NCBI GenBank assembly: GCA_023489025.1
Contig: JAMDCN010000127.1
Coordinates: 1-9,185, forward strand
Direction: 5' to 3'
From: Deltaproteobacteria bacterium
GTDB lineage: Bacteria > Desulfobacterota_E > Deferrimicrobia > Deferrimicrobiales > Deferrimicrobiaceae
DNA: 9,185 bases
Positions 2-9,185 of the stretch are shown piece by piece (position 1 is the stretch's first letter; every line of letters begins with the position of its first letter). The position numbers were made by a program, and so were the translations under genes. Below the pieces are notes generated by a model, which was not told the origin of the DNA, ran no database searches, and saw only the letters and a list, made by a program, of their open reading frames with translations.

Positions 2-109
2 TTGAGGATCAAGAACGGGAACATGACACAGGCGGCCGCCTTCCTGCGCATCCCCAGGCATGTCCTGATCTACCGGCTCGAAAAGTACGGGATCCGCCGC
101 GAGGCGTGA
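2..109 (+). CDS. Sigma-54-dependent activator (bEBP), C-terminal fragment with Fis-type HTH
   Basis: Only the last 35 residues are present; the gene begins outside the window. The translation contains GNMTQAAAFL followed by RIPRHVLIYRLEKYGI, the Fis-type helix-turn-helix that ends AtoC/ZraR/NtrC-class response regulators, and stops at TGA 107-109. Family members bind upstream activator sequences and remodel sigma-54 RNA polymerase through an AAA+ domain, which is not visible here. Two sigma-54 promoters with matching upstream inverted repeats lie directly downstream on the same strand, so this protein is the obvious candidate to control them. That link is inferred from position. Whether a receiver domain and a partner histidine kinase exist cannot be seen. 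Confidence 0.85.
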   Translation: MRIKNGNMTQAAAFLRIPRHVLIYRLEKYGIRREA

Positions 110-130: not shown

Positions 131-165
131 CTTGAAGAATAGCCTCTCGTTCTTCAAGACTATTC
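131..165. promoter_or_regulatory. Putative upstream activator site 1 (inverted repeat)
   Basis: CTTGAAGAA (131-139) is a perfect 9-bp inverted repeat of TTCTTCAAG (150-158), with a 10-base spacer; GAATAG (137-142) also pairs with CTATTC (160-165). The centre, about 144.5, is about 134 bp before the predicted start of transcription at 279. On the minus strand it reads GGCTATTCTTCAAG, close to GGATATTCTTCAGT at the second site (603-614 region), and both sites carry GAACGAGAG (minus strand 152-144 here). I infer an enhancer site for the sigma-54 activator. The T-rich stretch after it means it could instead, or also, act as a weak terminator for the regulator gene. Confidence 0.5.
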
Positions 166-185
166 GTCTTTCTTGTCTTGTCGCT

Positions 186-204
186 GTCCTTCCTTCCGAA
201 GGAC
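186..204 (+). other. Short inverted repeat / stem-loop
   Basis: GTCCTTC (186-192) and GAAGGAC (198-204) form a perfect 7-bp inverted repeat with a 5-base loop. No T-run follows directly, so it is a poor match to an intrinsic terminator. It lies between the putative activator site and the IHF-like site. Its role is unknown. Confidence 0.3.
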
Positions 205-211
205 ATCGCCG

Positions 212-224
212 CAACTATTTGATG
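212..224 (-). promoter_or_regulatory. IHF-like site upstream of sigma-54 promoter 1
   Basis: Read on the minus strand the bases are CATCAAATAGTTG, which match the IHF consensus WATCAANNNNTTR at every fixed position except the first. The centre (218) is about 61 bp before the predicted transcript start at 279, between the putative activator site and the promoter, where IHF usually bends DNA for sigma-54 activation. The second promoter has an IHF-like site in the same orientation and at nearly the same distance, which raises confidence above that of a lone match. Confidence 0.5.
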
Positions 225-252
225 TTAAAGCATTAGCCTTCAAATGGTCTTA

Positions 253-268
253 TGGCACGCCCGGTGCA
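253..268 (+). promoter_or_regulatory. Sigma-54 promoter 1 (-24/-12)
   Basis: TGGCACGCCCGGTGCA matches the sigma-54 consensus TGGCACRNNNNTTGCW, with GG and GC exactly 10 bases apart. The only weak base is G for the first T of the -12 element, which the second promoter shares. The predicted start is near 279, giving a leader of about 60 bases before the 72-aa gene at 341. The preceding activator gene and the IHF-like site fit sigma-54 control. Confidence 0.8.
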
Positions 269-340
269 TTCTGCGTCGGACAAGACCGGGAACGGCGCCG
301 TCGCAGGTGGAATGGAAACAACGATGAAAGGGGGAGTCAC

Positions 341-559
341 ATGAGACCCGTCACGGTGTACCGGGTGGATTACTTGAAGAAGACCAGGGTCCCGATCGGC
401 GAGATCCGGGAGCGGAGGAGGACTGACCGGGGCGGCAACCTCCTCGACCTGCTCAGGCTCGCGCGAAAGATCTACGGGGCAGGCCCGGAGGATGCCATCC
501 ACATCGCCGTCGACAAACGGGAGGCGCAGCGGGCCTGGATGAAGCATCTGGTGGCATAA
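341..559 (+). CDS. Conserved-looking small basic protein of unknown function (72 aa)
   Basis: I chose the ATG at 341 because AAAGGGGGAG lies just upstream and the start follows sigma-54 promoter 1; extension of the frame to 173 would pass back through the promoter. The product begins MRPVTVYRVDYLKKTRVPIG and is soluble, with no signal peptide, membrane segment or cysteine. It has a charged middle (EIRERRRTDRG, about residues 21-31) and a helical-looking second half (LLDLLRLARKIYG) that ends in basic residues. The pattern recalls short conserved hypothetical proteins I associate with Geobacter-type genomes, but I cannot name a domain. It appears to be a single-gene transcription unit, since a second sigma-54 promoter follows. 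Its own regulated promoter, matching that of the metal operon, suggests a linked role such as a cytoplasmic accessory or regulatory factor; this is inference. Confidence 0.75.
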   Translation: MRPVTVYRVDYLKKTRVPIGEIRERRRTDRGGNLLDLLRLARKIYGAGPEDAIHIAVDKREAQRAWMKHLVA

Positions 560-573
560 CGGCCCGGCGTGGC

Positions 574-614
574 GAACGAGAGAGGAATACTCTTCAATCG
601 ACTGAAGAATATCC
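574..614. promoter_or_regulatory. Putative upstream activator site 2 (inverted repeat)
   Basis: TCTTCA (591-596) and TGAAGA (603-608) are inverted around a 6-base spacer. With one mismatch the arms extend to ATACTCTTCA and TGAAGAATAT. The centre (about 599.5) is about 131 bp before the predicted start at 731. GAACGAGAG (574-582) precedes the arms and also occurs, on the opposite strand, in site 1. The arms match site 1, but their relative orientation differs: arms face inward here and outward there. The distance from the promoter is almost the same in both. I infer a binding site for the sigma-54 activator. Confidence 0.5.
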
Positions 615-661
615 TTCGGTGTTCGGATTTCAAATACGCCAGTCCCTCTCGTCTGCTTATA

Positions 662-674
662 TAACAACTGGATA
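662..674 (-). promoter_or_regulatory. IHF-like site upstream of sigma-54 promoter 2
   Basis: Read on the minus strand the bases are TATCCAGTTGTTA, matching the IHF consensus WATCAANNNNTTR at all fixed positions but one. It sits in an AT-rich stretch (about 655-690) in an otherwise GC-rich window. Its centre (668) is about 63 bp before the predicted start at 731, between the putative activator site and the promoter. Confidence 0.5.
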
Positions 675-704
675 ATATTTGAATTTTTCCTACAGATCTT
701 TGGG

Positions 705-720
705 TGGCACGACCCGTGCT
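705..720 (+). promoter_or_regulatory. Sigma-54 promoter 2 (-24/-12)
   Basis: TGGCACGACCCGTGCT has a perfect -24 element and the exact 10-base spacing between GG and GC. As in promoter 1, the -12 element reads GTGC rather than TTGC. The predicted start is near 731, leaving a short leader with GGAGG at 744-748 before the ATG at 759. It should drive the DUF2318/ABC operon and perhaps the genes beyond. Confidence 0.82.
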
Positions 721-758: not shown

Positions 759-1268
759 ATGGCGGTGAATCGCAGGAAGGGCATGATCATCGGTGGGGTA
801 GTCGCTGGAATCGTGGTTGTCGTCGTTGCGGCCGTTTCCGCCGGCGTGCTGGACGGTTTCTTTAAAAAATCCCCCGCGGAAACGGCGAAAGCGGCGGGAG
901 TGGTGGAGACGGCGGACGCCGTGAAGATCCCCCTGAAGGCCCTCGATTCCGGGAAAGCCCTCTTCCTGTCGTTGGAGTCGGAAGGGCGGCCGTTGTACTA
1001 CTTCGCCTTGAAAAGCCAGGACGGCGCGTATCGGGCGGCGCTCGACGCCTGCGACGTCTGCTTCAAGTCGAACCGCGGGTACCGGCAGGAAGGGGACCTC
1101 ATGGTCTGCAACAATTGCGGCCAGACCTTTCCCTCCAACCGGATCGGGGAGATCAAGGGCGGTTGCAATCCCCATCCTCTGGCGCGGGGAATCGACGGGC
1201 GGAATCTCGTGATCCGAAAGGCCGACATCGCCGAACGCAAGGATTACTTCGCCCTCAAGCGGTCATGA
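759..1268 (+). CDS. Membrane-anchored DUF2318 cysteine protein
   Basis: This 169-aa protein has one N-terminal membrane span (about 8-31), then a short linker and a periplasmic DUF2318 domain (about 60-169). Cysteines are arranged as CDVCF (98, 101), CNNC (117, 120) and GGCNP (136), the family signature, and likely bind a metal or metal cluster. DUF2318 proteins in Campylobacter (the Cj1658-Cj1665 region) and in uropathogenic E. coli are encoded with FTR1/P19-type iron transport and with FtsX-type ABC subunits; their biochemistry is largely unknown. Here it is the first gene after sigma-54 promoter 2, with GGAGG 10 bases before the start, and it is followed after 34 bases by the permease. The likely role is metal or electron handling for that transporter, which is inference. 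Confidence 0.85.
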   Translation: MAVNRRKGMIIGGVVAGIVVVVVAAVSAGVLDGFFKKSPAETAKAAGVVETADAVKIPLKALDSGKALFLSLESEGRPLYYFALKSQDGAYRAALDACDVCFKSNRGYRQEGDLMVCNNCGQTFPSNRIGEIKGGCNPHPLARGIDGRNLVIRKADIAERKDYFALKRS

Positions 1269-1302: not shown

Positions 1303-2454
1303 ATGAACATACGAAAGCTGGCCTGGAAGAACCTCTTGCGGCGCAAGTCGCGAGCCGTTTTCACGGGCCTCGGGATCTTCCTCGGGATCGCCACGTTCGT
1401 CGCGATCTCGTCGATCACCTCGCAGATGGAAGGGGCGGTCCAGGACCAGTTGGACCGGTTCGGCGCGAACATCGTGGTCTCTCCGAGGGCCGAGCAGCTC
1501 TCCCTGGGGTTCGGGAACATGACCCTCGGAGGAACGGAGGTGACCTACTCCCGCCTCACGATGGCGGACAAGGAGCGGATCGCGTCGATCCACCACAAGG
1601 ACCGGATCCGTTCCATCGTCCCCTTCCTGGTTACCGCCGCGGACGCCTCCGGGAAGAACCTCGTCTGGATGGGGCTCCCCGCCGCGGACATGGCTGGAGC
1701 CCGTCCTTGGTGGAAGATCCAGGGGGGGATGGGGCTGAAACGCGGAGAGGTGCTGCTGGGCGCCGAAGCGGCGGCGCTGCTCGACAAGGGGGCGGGGGGG
1801 ACCGTGACGGCCGGGAAACGCCTGTTCCGCGTCGCCGGGGTGCTTCAGCCGACGGGGGAGAAGGAGGACGGGATGGTCATCGCCGACATCGCGGACGTGC
1901 AGGTGCTGGCGAAGAGGCCTGGCGCAGTGACGTATTTCGAGGTGGCGGCGCTATGCAAGAATTGCCCGGTGGAGCAGATCGTGGCGCAGATCGGGCAAGC
2001 GTTGCCCGGCGCGCGGGTGTCGGCGATCCGGCAAGTGGTGGAGAGCCGGAAGGCCGCGGTGGAGCAGCTTCGGCGCCTCGGGTTCGGCGTCTCGGCGATC
2101 GTGCTGTTGATCGGGGGACTCATGGTGCTGGTGACCGTGATGGGCGGGGTACAGGAGCGCACGCGCGAGATCGGGGTCTTGCGGGCGGTCGGTTTCCGGA
2201 AACGCTCGATCTTCTCCCTCCTGTTCTGGGAGACCGGCTGGGTGTCGCTCCTCTCCTCGCTGCTCGGGGCGGGGACGGGAATCGCCGTCGCGTACATTGC
2301 GTCGCCGGTGTTCGGGATCGAGCATCCCTCGGTCGTCTTCTCACCGGCGATCTTCGGCGCCGTCGCCGGCCTCTCACTCGGGTTGATCGGGGCCATTCCG
2401 CCGGCGCGGCGCGCGGCCGCCCTGTCGCCCACGGAAGCGATCCGCAGCCTTTGA
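1303..2454 (+). CDS. MacB/FtsX-type ABC transporter permease
   Basis: This 383-aa protein has MacB-like topology: a basic N-terminus (LAWKNLLRRKSR), one membrane span (about 19-40), a large periplasmic domain (about 41-258), and three spans (about 260-281, 304-333 and 347-368). The cytoplasmic loop ERTREIGVLRAVGFRKRSI (about 285-303) is the typical FtsX/MacB coupling segment, and the C-terminus has the conserved PPARRAAALSPTEAIRSL. An unusual CKNCP motif sits in the periplasmic domain (Cys218, Cys221). The adjacent ATPase gene starts 23 bases after the stop. This superfamily usually does mechanical work on periplasmic substrates or lipoproteins rather than forming a solute channel. Campylobacter has two such permeases beside DUF2318; only one is present here, so a homodimer is likely. 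Confidence 0.9.
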   Translation: MNIRKLAWKNLLRRKSRAVFTGLGIFLGIATFVAISSITSQMEGAVQDQLDRFGANIVVSPRAEQLSLGFGNMTLGGTEVTYSRLTMADKERIASIHHKDRIRSIVPFLVTAADASGKNLVWMGLPAADMAGARPWWKIQGGMGLKRGEVLLGAEAAALLDKGAGGTVTAGKRLFRVAGVLQPTGEKEDGMVIADIADVQVLAKRPGAVTYFEVAALCKNCPVEQIVAQIGQALPGARVSAIRQVVESRKAAVEQLRRLGFGVSAIVLLIGGLMVLVTVMGGVQERTREIGVLRAVGFRKRSIFSLLFWETGWVSLLSSLLGAGTGIAVAYIASPVFGIEHPSVVFSPAIFGAVAGLSLGLIGAIPPARRAAALSPTEAIRSL

Positions 2455-2477: not shown

Positions 2478-3191
2478 ATGGAACCGATCATTCACCTGAA
2501 GGACGTTTCGATGGTCTACGGAGGCAACGGTACCCGGACGACGGCGCTGGCCGGGATCTCCTTCGATGTTCTGCAGGGGGAGTACCTCGTCATAACGGGG
2601 GAGTCGGGGGCGGGGAAGAGCACTATGCTGACGATCCTCGGGGGGCTCCAGGTCCCTACCGAAGGGGCGGTTCGGATCGGCGGCTCCGATCTCTCCGCGC
2701 TCCCGGCGGACGGCTTGGCCGACTTCCGGCGGAAGACGATCGGTTTCGTCTTCCAGGCGTACCACCTCCTCCCGTACCTGACGGCGCGGGAGAACGTGAT
2801 GGTGCCCATGTCCCCGGAGCGGGTCCCGCCCCGGGAGAAGGAGGAGCGGGCCAACGACCTTCTCGCCTCCGTGGGGCTGGCCGGGAAGGAGGATCGCCTC
2901 CCTTCGCAGCTGTCCGGCGGAGAGAGCCAGCGAGTGGCGATCGCGCGTGCCCTGGTCCACGATCCCCCCGTGTTGCTGGCGGACGAGCCGACGGGGAACC
3001 TCGACAGCGCGACGGGAGAGCAGATCCTCGACCTGTTCTCCGGGTGGCACGGCCGGGGGAAGACGGTCCTGATGGTCACGCACAACAAGGCGAACCTCTC
3101 CCGCGCCACTCGGTCCATCCGCCTGCGCGATGGGCAGGTCGAGGAGGATCGGTTATTGCAATCTTTTTCCGCGGAGCCGGCGGCGGTCTGA
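2478..3191 (+). CDS. ABC transporter ATP-binding protein (MacB/LolD type)
   Basis: This 237-aa ATPase is complete. It has Walker A GESGAGKST (41-49), a Q-loop glutamine at 93, signature LSGGESQ (145-151), Walker B VLLADEP (165-171), a D-loop NLDS (174-177) and a switch histidine at 202 (VTHN). The sequence between Q-loop and signature (VFQAYHLLPYLTARENV) is typical of the LolD/MacB/FtsE group that partners FtsX-type permeases. The start at 2478 is supported by GGGAG at 2468-2472; the frame remains open upstream in a shadow of the permease gene. It should energise the permease encoded directly upstream. The C-terminal tail past residue 225 is short and unremarkable. Confidence 0.92.
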   Translation: MEPIIHLKDVSMVYGGNGTRTTALAGISFDVLQGEYLVITGESGAGKSTMLTILGGLQVPTEGAVRIGGSDLSALPADGLADFRRKTIGFVFQAYHLLPYLTARENVMVPMSPERVPPREKEERANDLLASVGLAGKEDRLPSQLSGGESQRVAIARALVHDPPVLLADEPTGNLDSATGEQILDLFSGWHGRGKTVLMVTHNKANLSRATRSIRLRDGQVEEDRLLQSFSAEPAAV

Positions 3192-3194
3192 ACG

Positions 3195-3219
3195 CAGGTC
3201 ATCAACACAGGTCATCAAC
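3195..3219 (+). repeat. Two tandem copies of a 13-bp unit
   Basis: CAGGTCATCAACA (3195-3207) is followed at once by CAGGTCATCAAC (3208-3219), so the unit occurs almost exactly twice in the short gap between the ATPase stop and the next start. It may be a slippage duplication or a paired protein or RNA site. Confidence 0.7.
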
Positions 3220-3237
3220 GGAAGAAAGGAAAGAGCG

Positions 3238-3498
3238 ATGGAAGAAGCGGGAAAGGGAAAGCAGGAGTCAACGGGAACACAAGCGTCGACGGAAACGGCC
3301 GCAACGGGGGAACCGCAATCCGTGGAGAGCCGGCGAGGCCCTGGCTGGAAAGCATGGGTGCTCTCCATTCTCGCGGCGATCATCCTGTCGGTGACGGCGA
3401 CGCTGCTTCTTGGAGGATCCGGTTCCTTCCGGTCGGATCGCGCGGCGGCGGAGGGAGCGGGTCGCAGCTGCTGTCCCCCCGCGGTTGCGGAGAAGTGA
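3238..3498 (+). CDS. Small single-span membrane protein with a C-terminal Cys-Cys pair
   Basis: The 86-aa product starts at ATG 3238, with AAGGAAAG just upstream. Residues 1-36 are hydrophilic and low in complexity (Thr, Glu, Gly, Ala). Residues 37-59 (KAWVLSILAAIILSVTATLL) form one membrane span, and the tail carries GRSCCPPAVAEK with adjacent cysteines at 78-79. I recognise no named family. The likely orientation is N-terminus inside and Cys pair in the periplasm, where it could bind a soft metal such as Cu(I) or take part in thiol exchange. It lies 46 bases after the ATPase and 14 bases before the next small gene, so it is probably part of the same transcript. Function is inferred only from location and the Cys pair. 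Confidence 0.7.
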   Translation: MEEAGKGKQESTGTQASTETAATGEPQSVESRRGPGWKAWVLSILAAIILSVTATLLLGGSGSFRSDRAAAEGAGRSCCPPAVAEK

Positions 3499-3887: not shown

Positions 3888-5270
3888 GTGATGAAGAGGC
3901 GAGCGATGAGGATCGGCGAAGGAATCATGACACCGGGAAGAACCCTCTTCTTCCTCCTGGCGATCTCGATCGCGTCGCCGTGGGCGAGTCCGCTCCGGGC
4001 GGAAGAGCCGCCTCGGCCGGTGGGTTATTACGTCGACGCGGCGTTATCGGGTTATCCATCTCTGGCGTCCATGCGGCAGCGGATCACGATGAAGCGAAAC
4101 GAGGCGATCCGCGCGGGGGCGCTGGACGATCCCAAGGGGTGGGTTGCGATCAGCAACGTCCCGGTCCGGACCGGATCGTTCCGCGAAGAAGATATGACGG
4201 GGAAGGAGATCGGCTTCTCCCAGATGATTCCCTACCCGGGGAAGCGGGCGCACGCGGTGCGGATCGTCGAGAAGGAGAAGGATGAGGCGGAATTCGACCT
4301 GGCGGAGATGCGGAACATGCTCCGCGCGGACGTCAAGATGACCTATGCGGAGCTGACCACCGTACGGGCGCAGGCGGACGTGGTGCGCCAGGTCCGGGCC
4401 GTGCTGGACCAGGTGGTGCAGGTTTCCACGGAGATGCTCGCGGTCGGGAAGGGGAGGCAGCCCGATGTTCTCCGGGGGCAGGTAGAGTTCCAGAAGATGC
4501 GGGAGATGCTGCTTACGCTGGAGAACCGGGAAAAGGTCCTCTCGATCCGCCTGAATACCCTCGCGGTGCTCACTCCGGACGCGCCGGTGCCGGCGCTGGA
4601 CAACCTCGTCGAGTTTTTCCCGGGGTACAACGTGGAGGAGCTCCGGGCGATCTACAGGGCGGAGCGCCCGGCGCGGCAGGCGATCCAAGCCCGGATCGAA
4701 AAGGGGAAGTTGGGCGTCCTGCACGCGGAGCACGAGTACAAGCCGGACTTCGAGATCTCCACCTCCTACATGCAGCGTGACCCGATGCCGGACGGGACGA
4801 AGCGCCCGGACATGTTCTCCGCCATGGTGTCGATGACCCTTCCGATATGGAGGAAAGAGAAGATCGAGCCGGGGATCCGGGCGATGGCGGCGGAGAAGGA
4901 GATGGCGATTCGCGACGAGGAGACCCTTGACGCCGAGGCGGCCAACGCGATCGACGGTTCGCTCGCGTCCCTTTCGAACTTCGCGGCGGTGGCGAAGCTG
5001 TACCGGACGACCCTCATCCCCCAGGCGGAGCAGTCGGTCCGGTCCAACCTCGAAGCGTACCAGGTGGGGGAGATCGACTTCCCGATGCTCATGGATTCCC
5101 TGGTCGCGGAGCTCAACTTCCGCAAGGAGTACGCCGGGATGGTAGGCGAGATGCACTCGACGAAGGCCCGGCTGGAGGCGGCTGTGGGCAGGGAACTCGA
5201 TGGAGCAGCAACGGATCCCGGTGGGAGCGCACCTCCGGAAACGAAGAATTCCGACGGAGAGGGACGATGA
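3888..5270 (+). CDS. TolC-family outer-membrane efflux protein (CusC-like role)
   Basis: This product of about 460 aa opens with a signal peptide whose hydrophobic core (TLFFLLAISIASPWA, 19-33) ends near LRA-EE (38/39). Starts at GTG 3888, ATG 3891 and ATG 3927 are all possible; 3927 gives the most compact signal peptide and has AAGGA just before it. The mature protein is rich in long amphipathic helices, with GKEIGFSQMIPYPGKR (about 105-120) and AMVSMTLPIWRKEKIEPGI (about 307-325). These are the repeated strand-entry motifs of TolC-type factors linked to heavy-metal pumps. I see no lipobox cysteine, unlike E. coli CusC. The stop overlaps the adaptor start by 4 bases (ATGA), which indicates translational coupling. 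It forms the outer-membrane duct for the pump encoded downstream. Confidence 0.9.
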   Translation: MMKRRAMRIGEGIMTPGRTLFFLLAISIASPWASPLRAEEPPRPVGYYVDAALSGYPSLASMRQRITMKRNEAIRAGALDDPKGWVAISNVPVRTGSFREEDMTGKEIGFSQMIPYPGKRAHAVRIVEKEKDEAEFDLAEMRNMLRADVKMTYAELTTVRAQADVVRQVRAVLDQVVQVSTEMLAVGKGRQPDVLRGQVEFQKMREMLLTLENREKVLSIRLNTLAVLTPDAPVPALDNLVEFFPGYNVEELRAIYRAERPARQAIQARIEKGKLGVLHAEHEYKPDFEISTSYMQRDPMPDGTKRPDMFSAMVSMTLPIWRKEKIEPGIRAMAAEKEMAIRDEETLDAEAANAIDGSLASLSNFAAVAKLYRTTLIPQAEQSVRSNLEAYQVGEIDFPMLMDSLVAELNFRKEYAGMVGEMHSTKARLEAAVGRELDGAATDPGGSAPPETKNSDGEGR

Positions 5271-6880
5271 GCGACGAGAAGAAGGCAGGGGTGGAGGGAT
5301 CCGGGATGCCCGGGGAAATCGGGGGATCGGGTGAGGCGCCGCCGAAGGGACCCGGAAAGAAGAAACGGCGCTGGATCTACTACGTCGTGGCAATCGTGGT
5401 TGCCTTGGCCGGCGGCGTCGCGTATCTCTACTTCAGCGGTTGCCTGGGCGGTGGCGGCGGCGCGGACAACACGGCGGGCGTGCACGCCCAATCCGACAAG
5501 TACACCTGCGGCATGCACCCGTTCATCTTCTCCGACAAGCCGGGAAACTGCCCCATCTGCGGGATGAAGCTGACGAAGATCGAGGGCTCGGCGGGTCCCG
5601 GCGTCGCTGCCGTCGCTCCTTCGGCGCCCGCCGCGAAACCTTCGGGAGGCCCGCGGAAGATCCTCTTTTACCGCAGTCCGATGAACCCCAACGTCACATC
5701 GCCGACTCCGTCCAAGGACTCGATGGGGATGGACTTCGTTCCGGTGTACGAGGACGAGGCCAGGGGGAGCGGGGGCGGCGCTGCTTTGCCCGAGGGGTAC
5801 GCCAACGTCCGAGTGGGGATGGAACGAGCGGAGATGGCCGGGATACAGAGCGCGGCCGCGGTGCGGGAGACGATCAGCCGGCCGGTGCGGGCCGTGGGGC
5901 TCGTCGTGCCCGATGAAAAGCGCGTCCGCCGCGTCCAGACGAAAATCGACGGCTGGATCGAAAAGCTCCACACCAATTTCACCGGAGAATTGGTGAGGAA
6001 GGGGCAGCCGCTCATGGATATATACTCCCCGGACCTCGTGGCTACCCAGCGGGAATACCTGCTGGCGAGGGCGGGCGCGGACCGGATGAAGGAGAGCCCG
6101 TACGAGGATGCGCGGCGGATGTCTTCCGGCCTCGTCCAGGCCGCCCGGACGCGCCTGAAGCTCTTCGACGTTCCGGAAAGCTTCATCGAGGAACTGGAGC
6201 GCACGGGCAAGGTGCGGCGCATCGTCACGCTGAACGCGCCGGTGTCGGGCTACGTGACGGGCAAGGAGATCTTCGAGGGGATGCGCGTCTCGCCGGGGAT
6301 GGATCTGCTCACCGTGACCGACCTCTCCCGCGTCTGGATCGATGCCTATCTCTACGAATACGAGGCGCAGTTCGTGCGCGTCGGGCAAACCGCCGTTCTC
6401 GATACGGAGGCCGATCCGGGGTCGAAGATGAAAGGGCGGATCGCCTACATCTATCCCACGATCTCGCCCGAGACCCGCACGCTCAAGGTGCGGTTCGACT
6501 TTCCCAATCCCGGTCTTCGCCTGAAGCCGCAGATGTACGCCAACGTCTCGCTCGGTCTGCATAGCGTGACAGGTGTCGTCATCCCCGACTCGGCGTTGAT
6601 CGAAACCGGTACCCGCGTGATCGCATTCGTGGATGCGGGAGGCGGCAGCTTCGAGCCGCGCGAGGTGAAGGTGGGCGTCCGTGGCGACGGCAAGGCGCAG
6701 ATCCTTTCCGGCATAAAGGCGGGCGAAAACGTCGTGGTGGGCGCCAACTTCCTGCTCGACTCGGAGTCGAAGCTGCGGGCGGCGCTCACGAAGATGACCG
6801 GCGGCGCGTCCGCGCCCTCGCAGCCGCAACCGAAGCCGCAAGGGCAGGTTGATCACACGGGCCACGGAGGCGGGCAATGA
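5267..6880 (+). CDS. cusB: CusB-like RND periplasmic adaptor with heavy-metal-binding domains
   Basis: This 537-aa membrane-fusion protein has a basic N-terminus, one inner-membrane span (about 36-57) and a Gly-rich linker. A heavy-metal-binding domain (79-106) follows, YTCGMHP then CPICGMKL, with Cys81, His84, Cys95 and Cys98. A second, Cys-free copy (133-162) has the FYRSPMNP and SMGMDFVPVY motifs usual in CusB. The adaptor core starts near 180: barrel-sandwich halves around 224-260 and 316-350, with a helical hairpin between them, then beta-barrel and membrane-proximal domains to about 505. The C-terminus ends DHTGHGGGQ. CusB collects Cu(I)/Ag(I) and hands it to CusA. GGAGAGGG precedes the start, and 4-bp overlaps join it to both neighbours. 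Codon preference changes within the gene, near 6180. Confidence 0.92.
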   Translation: MSDEKKAGVEGSGMPGEIGGSGEAPPKGPGKKKRRWIYYVVAIVVALAGGVAYLYFSGCLGGGGGADNTAGVHAQSDKYTCGMHPFIFSDKPGNCPICGMKLTKIEGSAGPGVAAVAPSAPAAKPSGGPRKILFYRSPMNPNVTSPTPSKDSMGMDFVPVYEDEARGSGGGAALPEGYANVRVGMERAEMAGIQSAAAVRETISRPVRAVGLVVPDEKRVRRVQTKIDGWIEKLHTNFTGELVRKGQPLMDIYSPDLVATQREYLLARAGADRMKESPYEDARRMSSGLVQAARTRLKLFDVPESFIEELERTGKVRRIVTLNAPVSGYVTGKEIFEGMRVSPGMDLLTVTDLSRVWIDAYLYEYEAQFVRVGQTAVLDTEADPGSKMKGRIAYIYPTISPETRTLKVRFDFPNPGLRLKPQMYANVSLGLHSVTGVVIPDSALIETGTRVIAFVDAGGGSFEPREVKVGVRGDGKAQILSGIKAGENVVVGANFLLDSESKLRAALTKMTGGASAPSQPQPKPQGQVDHTGHGGGQ

Positions 6881-9185
6881 ACCCGCACGGTGCGGGATCG
6901 CCCGGCGAGCCCGTGAAAGACACCTTCATCCAGCGCATCATCGGGTTCTGCGCGGTCAACCGCTACCTCACGCTGCTCGCGGTGACCGCGCTGTGCGCGT
7001 TCGCCGTCTACACGTTCAAGGAGATCCGTCTCGACGCGCTGCCGGACCTGTCCGACACGCAGGTCATCGTCTACTCGAAGTGGGACCGGTCCCCCGACAT
7101 CATCGAGGACCAGGTGACGTACCCGATCGTGGCGGCGCTGCTGGGCGCTCCGAACGTCAAGGCGATCCGCGGTTTCTCCGACTTCGGCTTCTCGTACGTG
7201 TACGTGATCTTCCAGGACGGCACCGACATCTACTGGGCCCGCTCCCGCGTGCTGGAATACATGTCCAAGATCCAGTCGCGGCTGCCCAAGGGAGTGCAGA
7301 CCGAGCTGGGGCCCGACGCCACGGGCGTGGGCTGGATCTACCAGTACGCGCTGGTCGACCGCTCCGGCACGCAGTCGCTCGACCAGCTCCGCTCGTACCA
7401 GGACTGGACTCTGCGCTACGCCTTCCAGTCCGTTCCCGGGGTATCGGAAGTCGCATCCATCGGCGGCTTCCAGAAGCAGTACCAGGTGACGGTCGATCCG
7501 AACAAGCTGGCGTCCTACGGCATTCCGATCACCATGGTCAGCGATGCCATACGGGAGTCGAACAACGAGGTGGGCGGGCGCCTCATCGAGTTCGCGGGCG
7601 CCGAATACATGGTGAGGGGACGGGGATATATAAAGAACCCGTCCGATCTGGAAAACGTGGTGCTGAAGACAGGCGCCGGCGGGGTTCCCGTCCTGCTGAA
7701 GGATGTCGGCCACGTGGCGTTCGGCCCCGAGATCCGGCGCGGCGTCTCCGACCTCGACGGGCTGGGCGACCACGTGGGCGGCATCATCGTGATGCGCTAC
7801 GGCGAGAACGCGCTCAACGTCATCGACCGGGTCAAGGCGAAGATGAAGGAGCTGGAGCCGTCGATGCCGAAAGGGGTCGAGTTCGTTCCGACCTACGACC
7901 GCTCCGACCTCATCCACCGGGCGATCGGGACGCTCAAGCACGAGCTCGGGGTCGAGATGGTCATCGTCGCGCTCGTGATCCTCTTTTTCCTGTGGCATGC
8001 CCCTTCCGCGCTGGTGCCGATCATCACGATTCCCGTCTCGGTGCTGTTGTCCTTCATTCCCCTCTACTACATGGGGGTGACGGTCAACATCATGAGCCTG
8101 GCCGGCATCGCCATCTCGATCGGCGTGCTCGTCGACGGGTCTATCGTCGAGGTCGAAAACGCCTACAACAAGATCTACCACTGGGACGCCGGCGGGCGGA
8201 AAGGCGACTTCCACGCGATACGTCTCGAGGCGCTGAAGGAGGTCGGCCCTTCCGTCTTCTTCTCGCTGCTCGTCATCGCCGTCGCGTTCCTCCCCGTCTT
8301 CACGCTGGTCGACCAGGAAGGGAGGCTGTTCAAGCCGCTGGCGTATTCGAAGAACCTGGCGATGGCGCTGGCCGCGCTCCTCGCGATCACGCTCAACCCG
8401 GCGCAGCGGATGATGTTCGCCCGGATCGACCCGTACACCTTCAAGCCGAAGTTCCTCGCGAAACTGGCCACGCACGCTTTCGTCGGAAAATATTATTCCG
8501 AAGAGAGGCACCCGGTCAGCCGCGTGCTCTTCCGCGTCTACGAGCCGGCGTGCCGCTTCGTGCTGCGCCGCCCGAAAACGGTCATCGCCGCCGCATTGGT
8601 GGCGCTGGCGGTGAGCGTTCCCGTCTACTTCAAACTCGGCAGCGAGTTCATGCCGCCGCTCAACGAAGGCACCATGCTCTACATGCCGACGACGCTGCCG
8701 GGGCTTTCCGTCGCGCAGGCGCAGGACCTGATGATCCGCATGGACAAGCTGCTGAAAAGCTTCCCCGAAGTCGAGCGCGTCTTCGGCAAGGCGGGGCGCG
8801 CCGACACGTCCACCGACCCGGCGCCGTTCTCGATGATGGAAACCACCGTGGTGCTGAAAGACCCGTCGAAGTGGAGCGCCAAGGAGCGCTGGTACTCGAA
8901 CTGGGCGCCCGATTTCCTGAAGGCCGTGTTCCGGCCCATCTGGCCCGACCATATCTCGTGGGACGAGCTCGTGGCGAAGATGGACGGCGTCGTCCGCTTT
9001 CCCGGCGTCACCAACGCCTGGACGATGCCGATCAAGGCGCGCATCGACATGCTGACGACCGACGCTGAAGCACGAGCTCGGGGTCGAGATGGTCATCGTC
9101 GCGCTCGTGATCCTCTTTTTCCTGTGGCATGCCCCTTCCGCGCTGGTGCCGATCATCACGATTCCCGTCTCGGTGCTGTTGTCCT
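6877..9185 (+). CDS. cusA: CusA-like heavy-metal efflux RND pump, 3' incomplete and chimeric at the end
   Basis: The start overlaps the adaptor stop (ATGA), with GGAGG 6 bases upstream. The first 728 codons (to 9060) read as a typical HME-RND inner-membrane proton antiporter: span 1 at about 30-47, GPDATGVGWIYQYALVD in the first porter domain, spans 2-4 at about 359-423 with the charged SIGVLVDGSIVEVEN segment (Asp420), and EFMPPLNEGTMLYMP in the second periplasmic half. The three methionines that bind copper in E. coli CusA are all matched: Met603 (LYMPT), Met653 (FSMMETT) and Met725 (RIDMLTT). This supports Cu(I)/Ag(I) rather than Zn/Co as substrate. From 9061 the sequence becomes an out-of-frame copy of 7929-8053, so the final 41 codons are not genuine protein; about 300 C-terminal residues are missing. 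Confidence 0.93.
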   Translation, partial: MNPHGAGSPGEPVKDTFIQRIIGFCAVNRYLTLLAVTALCAFAVYTFKEIRLDALPDLSDTQVIVYSKWDRSPDIIEDQVTYPIVAALLGAPNVKAIRGFSDFGFSYVYVIFQDGTDIYWARSRVLEYMSKIQSRLPKGVQTELGPDATGVGWIYQYALVDRSGTQSLDQLRSYQDWTLRYAFQSVPGVSEVASIGGFQKQYQVTVDPNKLASYGIPITMVSDAIRESNNEVGGRLIEFAGAEYMVRGRGYIKNPSDLENVVLKTGAGGVPVLLKDVGHVAFGPEIRRGVSDLDGLGDHVGGIIVMRYGENALNVIDRVKAKMKELEPSMPKGVEFVPTYDRSDLIHRAIGTLKHELGVEMVIVALVILFFLWHAPSALVPIITIPVSVLLSFIPLYYMGVTVNIMSLAGIAISIGVLVDGSIVEVENAYNKIYHWDAGGRKGDFHAIRLEALKEVGPSVFFSLLVIAVAFLPVFTLVDQEGRLFKPLAYSKNLAMALAALLAITLNPAQRMMFARIDPYTFKPKFLAKLATHAFVGKYYSEERHPVSRVLFRVYEPACRFVLRRPKTVIAAALVALAVSVPVYFKLGSEFMPPLNEGTMLYMPTTLPGLSVAQAQDLMIRMDKLLKSFPEVERVFGKAGRADTSTDPAPFSMMETTVVLKDPSKWSAKERWYSNWAPDFLKAVFRPIWPDHISWDELVAKMDGVVRFPGVTNAWTMPIKARIDMLTTDAEARARGRDGHRRARDPLFPVACPFRAGADHHDSRLGAVV
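7929..8053 (+). repeat. Direct repeat, copy 1 (inside cusA, in its natural frame)
   Basis: This segment encodes TLKHELGVEMVIVALVILFF and what follows, the start of the second membrane-span cluster. It is the in-frame original of the copy found at 9061-9185; the offset is 1132 bases. Confidence 0.95.
9061..9185 (+). repeat. Direct repeat, copy 2 at the window end (probable assembly join)
   Basis: It is identical to 7929-8053 except at 9067 (G for C at 7935), including an unbroken run of 118 bases from 9068 to the last base. The offset of 1132 is not a multiple of three, so the cusA frame is broken. The mismatch changes CTC to CTG, silent for Leu in the natural frame, which suggests a real second allele or paralogue rather than a read error. 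Confidence 0.95.

Follow-up and report, generated by a model that had tools for sequence, protein, structure and literature searches.

The window, that is, the whole stretch of 9,185 nucleotides analyzed here, carries two predicted sigma-54 promoters of the same design, one ahead of a gene for a 72-aa protein and the other ahead of an FtrD-ABC-Cus-type operon, and the two units very probably form one regulon under the NtrC-type regulator whose gene ends at position 109. Judged from sequence, this would be a well-supported new regulon of a known type. Table 1 lists the genes in their order from left to right. The tail of the regulator gene comes first, then the 72-aa gene, then the gene for the FtrD-like protein; next come genes for a permease of the FtsX/MacB type, an ABC-transporter ATPase and a further small protein, and the last three encode an outer-membrane efflux protein, an adaptor like CusB and a truncated pump of the CusA/CzcA type.

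Table 1. Genes and candidate promoter elements of the window (positions are those of the window)
Feature	Position	Strand	Remark
NtrC-type response regulator, C-terminal end (Fis-type HTH)	2..109	+	last 35 codons; remainder outside the window
Upstream half-site GAATAGCC, small-gene promoter	137..144	+	rank 4 in the window with the held-out model
Upstream half-site GACTATTC, small-gene promoter	158..165	+	rank 3 in the window with the held-out model
IHF-like site CATCAAATAGTTG	212..224	-	1 mismatch
Sigma-54 -24/-12 element TGGCACGCCCGGTGCA	253..268	+	counterparts upstream of relatives in G009:C69 and G004:C34
72-aa protein, multi-copy family	341..559	+	without Pfam match
Upstream half-site GAATACTC, FtrD promoter	585..592	+	rank 2 in the window with the held-out model
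Upstream half-site GAATATCC, FtrD promoter	607..614	+	rank 1 in the window with the held-out model
IHF-like site TATCCAGTTGTTA	662..674	-	1 mismatch
Sigma-54 -24/-12 element TGGCACGACCCGTGCT	705..720	+	orthologous promoters found in relatives
FtrD-like (DUF2318) protein	759..1268	+	PF10080, 99.8 bits, above the gathering cut-off of 26.3
FtsX/MacB-type ABC permease	1303..2454	+	PF02687, PF12704
ABC transporter ATPase	2478..3191	+	PF00005 (domain scan on 2487-3191)
Small conserved operon protein, start uncertain	3130..3498	+	tblastn matches: L055/L004, L072, L087, L071, L092
Outer-membrane efflux protein	3906..5270	+	PF02321 (domain scan on 3888-5270)
Heavy-metal RND periplasmic adaptor (CusB-like)	5267..6880	+	PF16576, HMBD; RND_mfp above cut-off
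CusA/CzcA-type RND pump, incomplete	6877..9067	+	reading past about 9067 doubtful

Within the operon, the adaptor scored below the cut-off of CusB (NF007303, 172 vs 390 bits) and above that of the general adaptor family TIGR01730 (118.8 vs 94.9), and the CusA/CzcA-type pump gave 653 bits with TIGR00914 on the truncated protein 6877-8940, the cut-off being 701.45. The final 118 bases of the window (9068-9185) are an exact copy of an earlier stretch (7936-8053) within the CusA-like gene; this terminal repeat seems to break the CusA-like reading and probably reflects faulty assembly at the end of the contig. The FtsX and FtrD proteins were 84% and 73% identical, respectively, to their counterparts on G004:C34. 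No match was found in the viral contigs searched, and a plasmid search returned only FtrD relatives of less than 60% identity, none with 80% query coverage.

A sequence-only reading of this DNA had placed two -24/-12 elements with the same GTGC variant ahead of the small gene and the operon, and both were recovered as exact matches to TGGCACGNNNNNTGCW. With up to one mismatch allowed, this pattern matched the window only at 253-268 and 705-720, both on the plus strand, compared with a mean of 0.21 matches in 200 window shuffles, six of which reached two. Each element has GG at -24, GC at -12 (in both cases within GTGC) and the canonical spacing of a sigma-54 promoter, and the two gave the top two sigma-54 scores in the window.

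The same reading had also described inverted repeats centred at about -134 and -131. Inverted repeats are indeed present in the window (131-139/150-158, 134-145/157-168 and 582-599/600-617), and the repeat of the operon promoter coincides with the half-site pair 585-592/607-614; at the small-gene promoter, however, the repeat 131-158 is not the conserved unit, which consists instead of the half-sites 137-144 and 158-165 with a centre at about -128. The upstream site is best described as two 8-bp near-palindromes of the GAATATTC type, at 137/158 and 585/607, with a spacing of 21-22 bp. From the 38 half-sites of 19 orthologous FtrD/DUF2318 promoters we derived a half-site model (consensus TGAAGAATATTCTTCA), with the window excluded and the small-gene promoter absent from the training set. 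Its four best matches in the window were those at 607, 585, 158 and 137, and the corresponding pairs scored 37.1 (585/607) and 25.0 (137/158), compared with 2.9 for the next pair, leaving aside register-shifted versions of the 585 pair, which reach 10.0, and with a maximum of 12.1 in 100 mononucleotide shuffles of the window; the test was not fully blind, because visual inspection of an alignment containing the window had first revealed the half-site. Among other held-out promoters, three on G009:C69 scored 25.8 (a relative of the small gene, with two mismatches in the left half-site), 25.1 (site 8556, shifted by about 22 bp) and 22.3 (site 844), values similar to the 25.0 of the small-gene promoter in the window. 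The small-gene promoter on G004:C34 kept the -24/-12 element, and its upstream pair was weak and displaced (13.6 vs the shuffle maximum of 12.1).

We then compared the promoters of FtrD across the 26 genomes of the class of G002, which are uncultured bacteria with mostly fragmented genomes. FtrD was found at 23 places in 21 of them. Two divergent places (44% and 31% identity) lacked a convincing site (best scores 1.7 and 6.0 bits), and 21 were close relatives (61-75% identity), two of which lie at contig edges, leaving 19 with upstream sequence. All 19 carry a -24/-12-like element 56-182 nt upstream of the matched start (scores 8.9-17.6), with GTGC at -12 in 16, TTGC in two and GTGA, which lacks GC, in one. 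Likewise, all 19 carry the half-site pair with at most one mismatch per half-site, the half-sites starting at -116 to -120 and -95 to -99 relative to the -24 element and lying 20-22 bp apart. When the 19 FtrD promoters, the two of the window and four others were aligned, 19 of the 25 had the pair with at most one mismatch per pair, compared with 0.02 on average and never more than 1 in mononucleotide shuffles, the FtrD orthologs not being independent samples. The presence of both elements in all 19 close orthologs with upstream sequence, together with the recognition of the window sites by the held-out model, supported the earlier proposal that both promoters answer to one enhancer-binding protein. 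At one place (G009:C38, 1869-2105; L227), a single half-site pair appears to be common to two divergent sigma-54 promoters, one of which faces FtrD.

The IHF-like sites that had been proposed on the minus strand of both promoters were also found, as one-mismatch matches to WATCAANNNNTTR at 212-224 and 662-674, but their support comes from recurrence in related promoters and not from the window alone, in which 1.22 such matches are expected and 70 of 200 shuffles reached two. Eleven of the 25 promoters have an IHF-like site with no more than one mismatch in the stretch that separates the half-sites from the -24 element, compared with 1.36 in mononucleotide shuffles, some of the promoters resembling copies of one another; eight of the 11 sites share one place (-35 to -37, minus strand). 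In the remaining 14, the best IHF-like site has two or more mismatches. IHF-alpha scored above its cut-off in 22 of the 26 genomes, and rpoN was matched in 24 (above the cut-off in 23) and not found in G004 and G005.

A scan of the genome with a -24/-12 matrix and a motif from the two inverted repeats had been suggested as a check; here the class was scanned with the composite pattern GAATANTC, 82-112 bases, YGGCAY, 6 bases, TGC. It returned 53 matches, corresponding to 47 distinct promoters in 18 of the 26 genomes, and a single match for the backwards control, which may understate the chance level. Fourteen of the 47 are FtrD promoters, the kind from which the pattern had been derived, and 32 of the other 33 were examined. 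A P-ATPase is encoded by the first called gene downstream in G005:C6, G001:C247 and G019:C7 and by the second in G007:C1 and G010:C43, an outer-membrane efflux protein (TolC) and a multicopper oxidase follow the site in G026:C67, and several sites precede genes for small secreted proteins with an ETGxxP-like motif. Eight distinct proteins of this last kind were noted (e.g. L052:8637-8891, L181:781-1068, L235:9529-9804 and L236:1041-1349), four of which have, in the 300 nt upstream, a sigma-54 site scoring 10 bits or more. Five matches (G023:C2, G022:C94, G015:C90, G004:C72 and G027:C42) showed by eye no clear second half-site, the last overlapping a called gene on the opposite strand, and look like chance matches. 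In a larger group of 247 genomes, at least 81 composite matches were counted among those listed, compared with nine control matches. The pattern was rarer outside the class, with 63 of the matches listed in 239 genomes (49 with a match), than within it (53 in 26). In G028, from outside the class, composite sites precede an NtrC-type regulator gene, a gene with an N-terminal heavy-metal-binding domain adjoining an ACR_tran pump gene, and an outer-membrane efflux gene beside a histidine kinase. These sites look real, and the system may therefore reach beyond the class.

In G009, the relative of the regulator (L052:12102-13472, minus strand) has the Response_reg, Sigma54_activat and HTH_8 domains and adjoins a histidine kinase gene. 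It scored below the NCBIfam cut-offs of ZraR (NF007689, 365 vs 760 bits), NtrC (TIGR01818, 433.6 vs 558.6) and AtoC (NF008469, 458 vs 714). Regulator-kinase pairs occur in relatives (e.g. L052, L250 and L251); the window itself shows no kinase, and no kinase gene was called beside the regulator copies of G019:C7 and G026:C67. As for the signal, the target genes point to copper or a copper-like metal, since they include P-ATPases with HMBD or YHS domains, the outer-membrane efflux protein with the multicopper oxidase, and the Cus-type RND genes. The metal may nevertheless not be copper, because the regulator-kinase pair is followed in some genomes by an NRAMP gene (L249, L251, L252, L254 and L256) and in others by a ZnuA-type uptake locus (L253 and L257), neighbours that leave room for other metals, and no diagnostic sensor domain was seen in the G009 kinase. 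A regulon that answers another metal, or envelope or redox stress, is possible, though less probable than one for copper.

The sequence-only reading had named the activator ending at 109 as the likely regulator, and it is still the best candidate. Its 35-aa C-terminus showed 64-83% identity over 24-35 aa to one NtrC-type response-regulator subfamily, and no other match was found for it in loci L165-L262, six of which (L184-L189) had been chosen for other NtrC-type proteins. It is improbable that the sigma-54 promoters are real while the half-site pair is bound by some other enhancer-binding protein. Such proteins are plentiful, as 169 of the 195 NtrC-type matches to the G009 member in the 26 genomes (E up to 1e-100) fall outside the subfamily, which among the matches listed has at least 26 copies, some of them partial, at 73% identity or higher in 20 of the 26 genomes, the next listed identity being 52%. 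With the divergent FtrD of G027 left out of the count, FtrD and the subfamily were found together in 18 genomes, FtrD alone in two, the regulator alone in two and neither in four (p = 0.013). The two with FtrD alone, G015 and G017, carry the site without a detected subfamily member, as would suit another binding protein, but the regulator gene of G017 may be missing from the bin, because this is only 1.1 Mb; in G008 and G016 the regulator is present, and neither FtrD nor a composite match was found. Besides the match of the C-terminus, linkage also argues for the subfamily, a member of which lies within about 10 kb of FtrD at seven of the 21 close FtrD places (G019:C7, G010:C190, G026:C67, G012:C119, G021:C190, G021:C181 and G020:C74), and the composite site of G018:C71 has the subfamily regulator gene as the second called gene downstream.

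That the matching architecture of the two promoters exceeds chance had been claimed from the window alone, and on this point the shuffles for the -24/-12 pattern, the conservation of the pair, the held-out model and the composite scan with its backwards control all agree, so that a chance origin of the sites is disfavoured. That the repeats serve as terminators or form RNA structures, with fortuitous -24/-12 matches, is extremely improbable, for although both repeats lie shortly past the stop codon of an upstream gene, the distance from the pair to the -24 element is kept in 19 of 19 orthologous promoters in which other upstream sequence differs, and the composite pattern stands far above its backwards control in the class.

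On the preferred reading of one regulon under the regulator ending at 109, a histidine kinase would sense metal stress at the envelope and phosphorylate the NtrC-type regulator, dimers of which would bind the two near-palindromic GAATATTC-type sites, 20-22 bp apart, at a distance of about 95-120 bp ahead of the -24 element. The DNA in between may be bent by IHF, and the AAA+ ring would then open the sigma-54 polymerase complex. The small protein and the metal-export genes would in this way be made together via one phosphorylated regulator.

The small gene exists at 341-559 as had been described, but it is no orphan as the earlier reading had it. The family is multi-copy, with 75 places in 24 of the 26 genomes of the class and one to nine matches in each, one of the nine in G009 being a fragment. 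In the wider group it was found in five of 148 genomes, three of which (G001, G009 and G011) are members of the class. A protein search with the 72-aa protein returned 59 proteins including its own, and some relatives carry the labels Desulfobacteria, Deltaproteobacteria, Candidatus Deferrimicrobiota or Candidatus Deferrimicrobium, so that the genomes compared here are probably Deferrimicrobium-like. The protein matched no Pfam family and no sequence of a solved structure, and comparison of its model (mean pLDDT 80.7) with the PDB gave no convincing fold match, the PaaB fold (3egr_B) being at most a possible one. Sigma-54-like sites of at least 10 bits lie within 300 nt of the matched start at 26 of the 75 family places, the other 49 having none. 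By comparison, such sites were found for 14 of 170 called genes that had 100 nt or more of intergenic DNA, all from loci around family members, for 17 of 956 raw open reading frames, some of them spurious, and for one of 75 family places on the reverse strand. Most of the sigma-54-like sites of the family differ from the type seen in the window, and other activators are therefore likely for it. On G004:C34, a family relative is followed by a stand-alone receiver and by the FtrD operon, and a -24/-12 element of the GTGC type is present in both promoters. In another branch of the family (L090, L091, L089, L061 and L095), a related sigma-54-like site (such as AGGCTCGGTAATTGCA) lies 32-33 nt before the matched start, and the small gene is followed by a cold-shock-like gene and then by a larger gene.

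Stand-alone receivers (L055:5662-6129, minus strand, and L052:1008-1523, plus strand) adjoin genes of the small family downstream of sigma-54 sites; they share 56-57% identity with the receiver end of the NtrC-type regulator and are possible phosphate sinks. A wider and unlikely proposal would be a sigma-54 regulon for metal stress that spans the class and has new small proteins among its targets. In it the 72-aa family, multi-copy and enriched for several kinds of sigma-54-like promoter, would act in this group as a general effector or modulator of sigma-54 responses; it would be produced along with metal export and, in some cases, with a stand-alone receiver as a competitor for phosphate.

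Paired activator sites, an IHF site and a -24/-12 element make up the general layout of sigma-54 promoters, and the promoters described here share this layout and differ from the general class in the sequence of the site and in regulon membership. ZraSR of enteric bacteria is a two-component system for a sigma-54-linked metal stress response. The present system resembles it in kind, as far as the available part of PMC12316311 describes it, but the G009 regulator lies under the ZraR cut-off and the targets are others. Our literature search found no paper joining DUF2318 with sigma-54, and among the papers listed no title or abstract opening describes this regulon. In gut Firmicutes, DUF2318-domain proteins fall within the CsoR copper-homeostasis regulon, and the available part of the paper in question (PMC4938975) does not mention sigma-54. 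Copper is likewise not mentioned in the available main text of the sigma-54 regulome paper on Desulfovibrio vulgaris (PMC4641369) or in that of a two-component target map (PMC3333781).

Sigma-54 control of a DUF2318/metal-efflux locus had been called unusual compared with MerR or CusRS control, a claim that has to be qualified by a precedent in Myxococcus xanthus, where, according to the available part of PMC3707914, the response regulator and histidine kinase CorSR act, with expression data, on the curA copper operon, which has four putative sigma-54 promoters and encodes a cupredoxin, a multicopper oxidase and a P-ATPase. CorSR, as that part describes it, is the closest precedent, likewise pairing a Response_reg, Sigma54_activat and HTH_8 regulator with a histidine kinase; it differs in that CorS has a HAMP domain, none being found in the G009 kinase, in that here the two-site GAATATTC-type element recurs across the class, and in that the targets here include the FtrD-ABC-Cus-type operon and small proteins (PMC3707914). 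Two guessed promoters have thus become a candidate regulon of an uncultured lineage, for which the site is defined, a regulator proposed and the targets listed, and a family of small proteins has gained a testable context. If true, it would add, beside CorSR, a further case of copper-type defence run by sigma-54.
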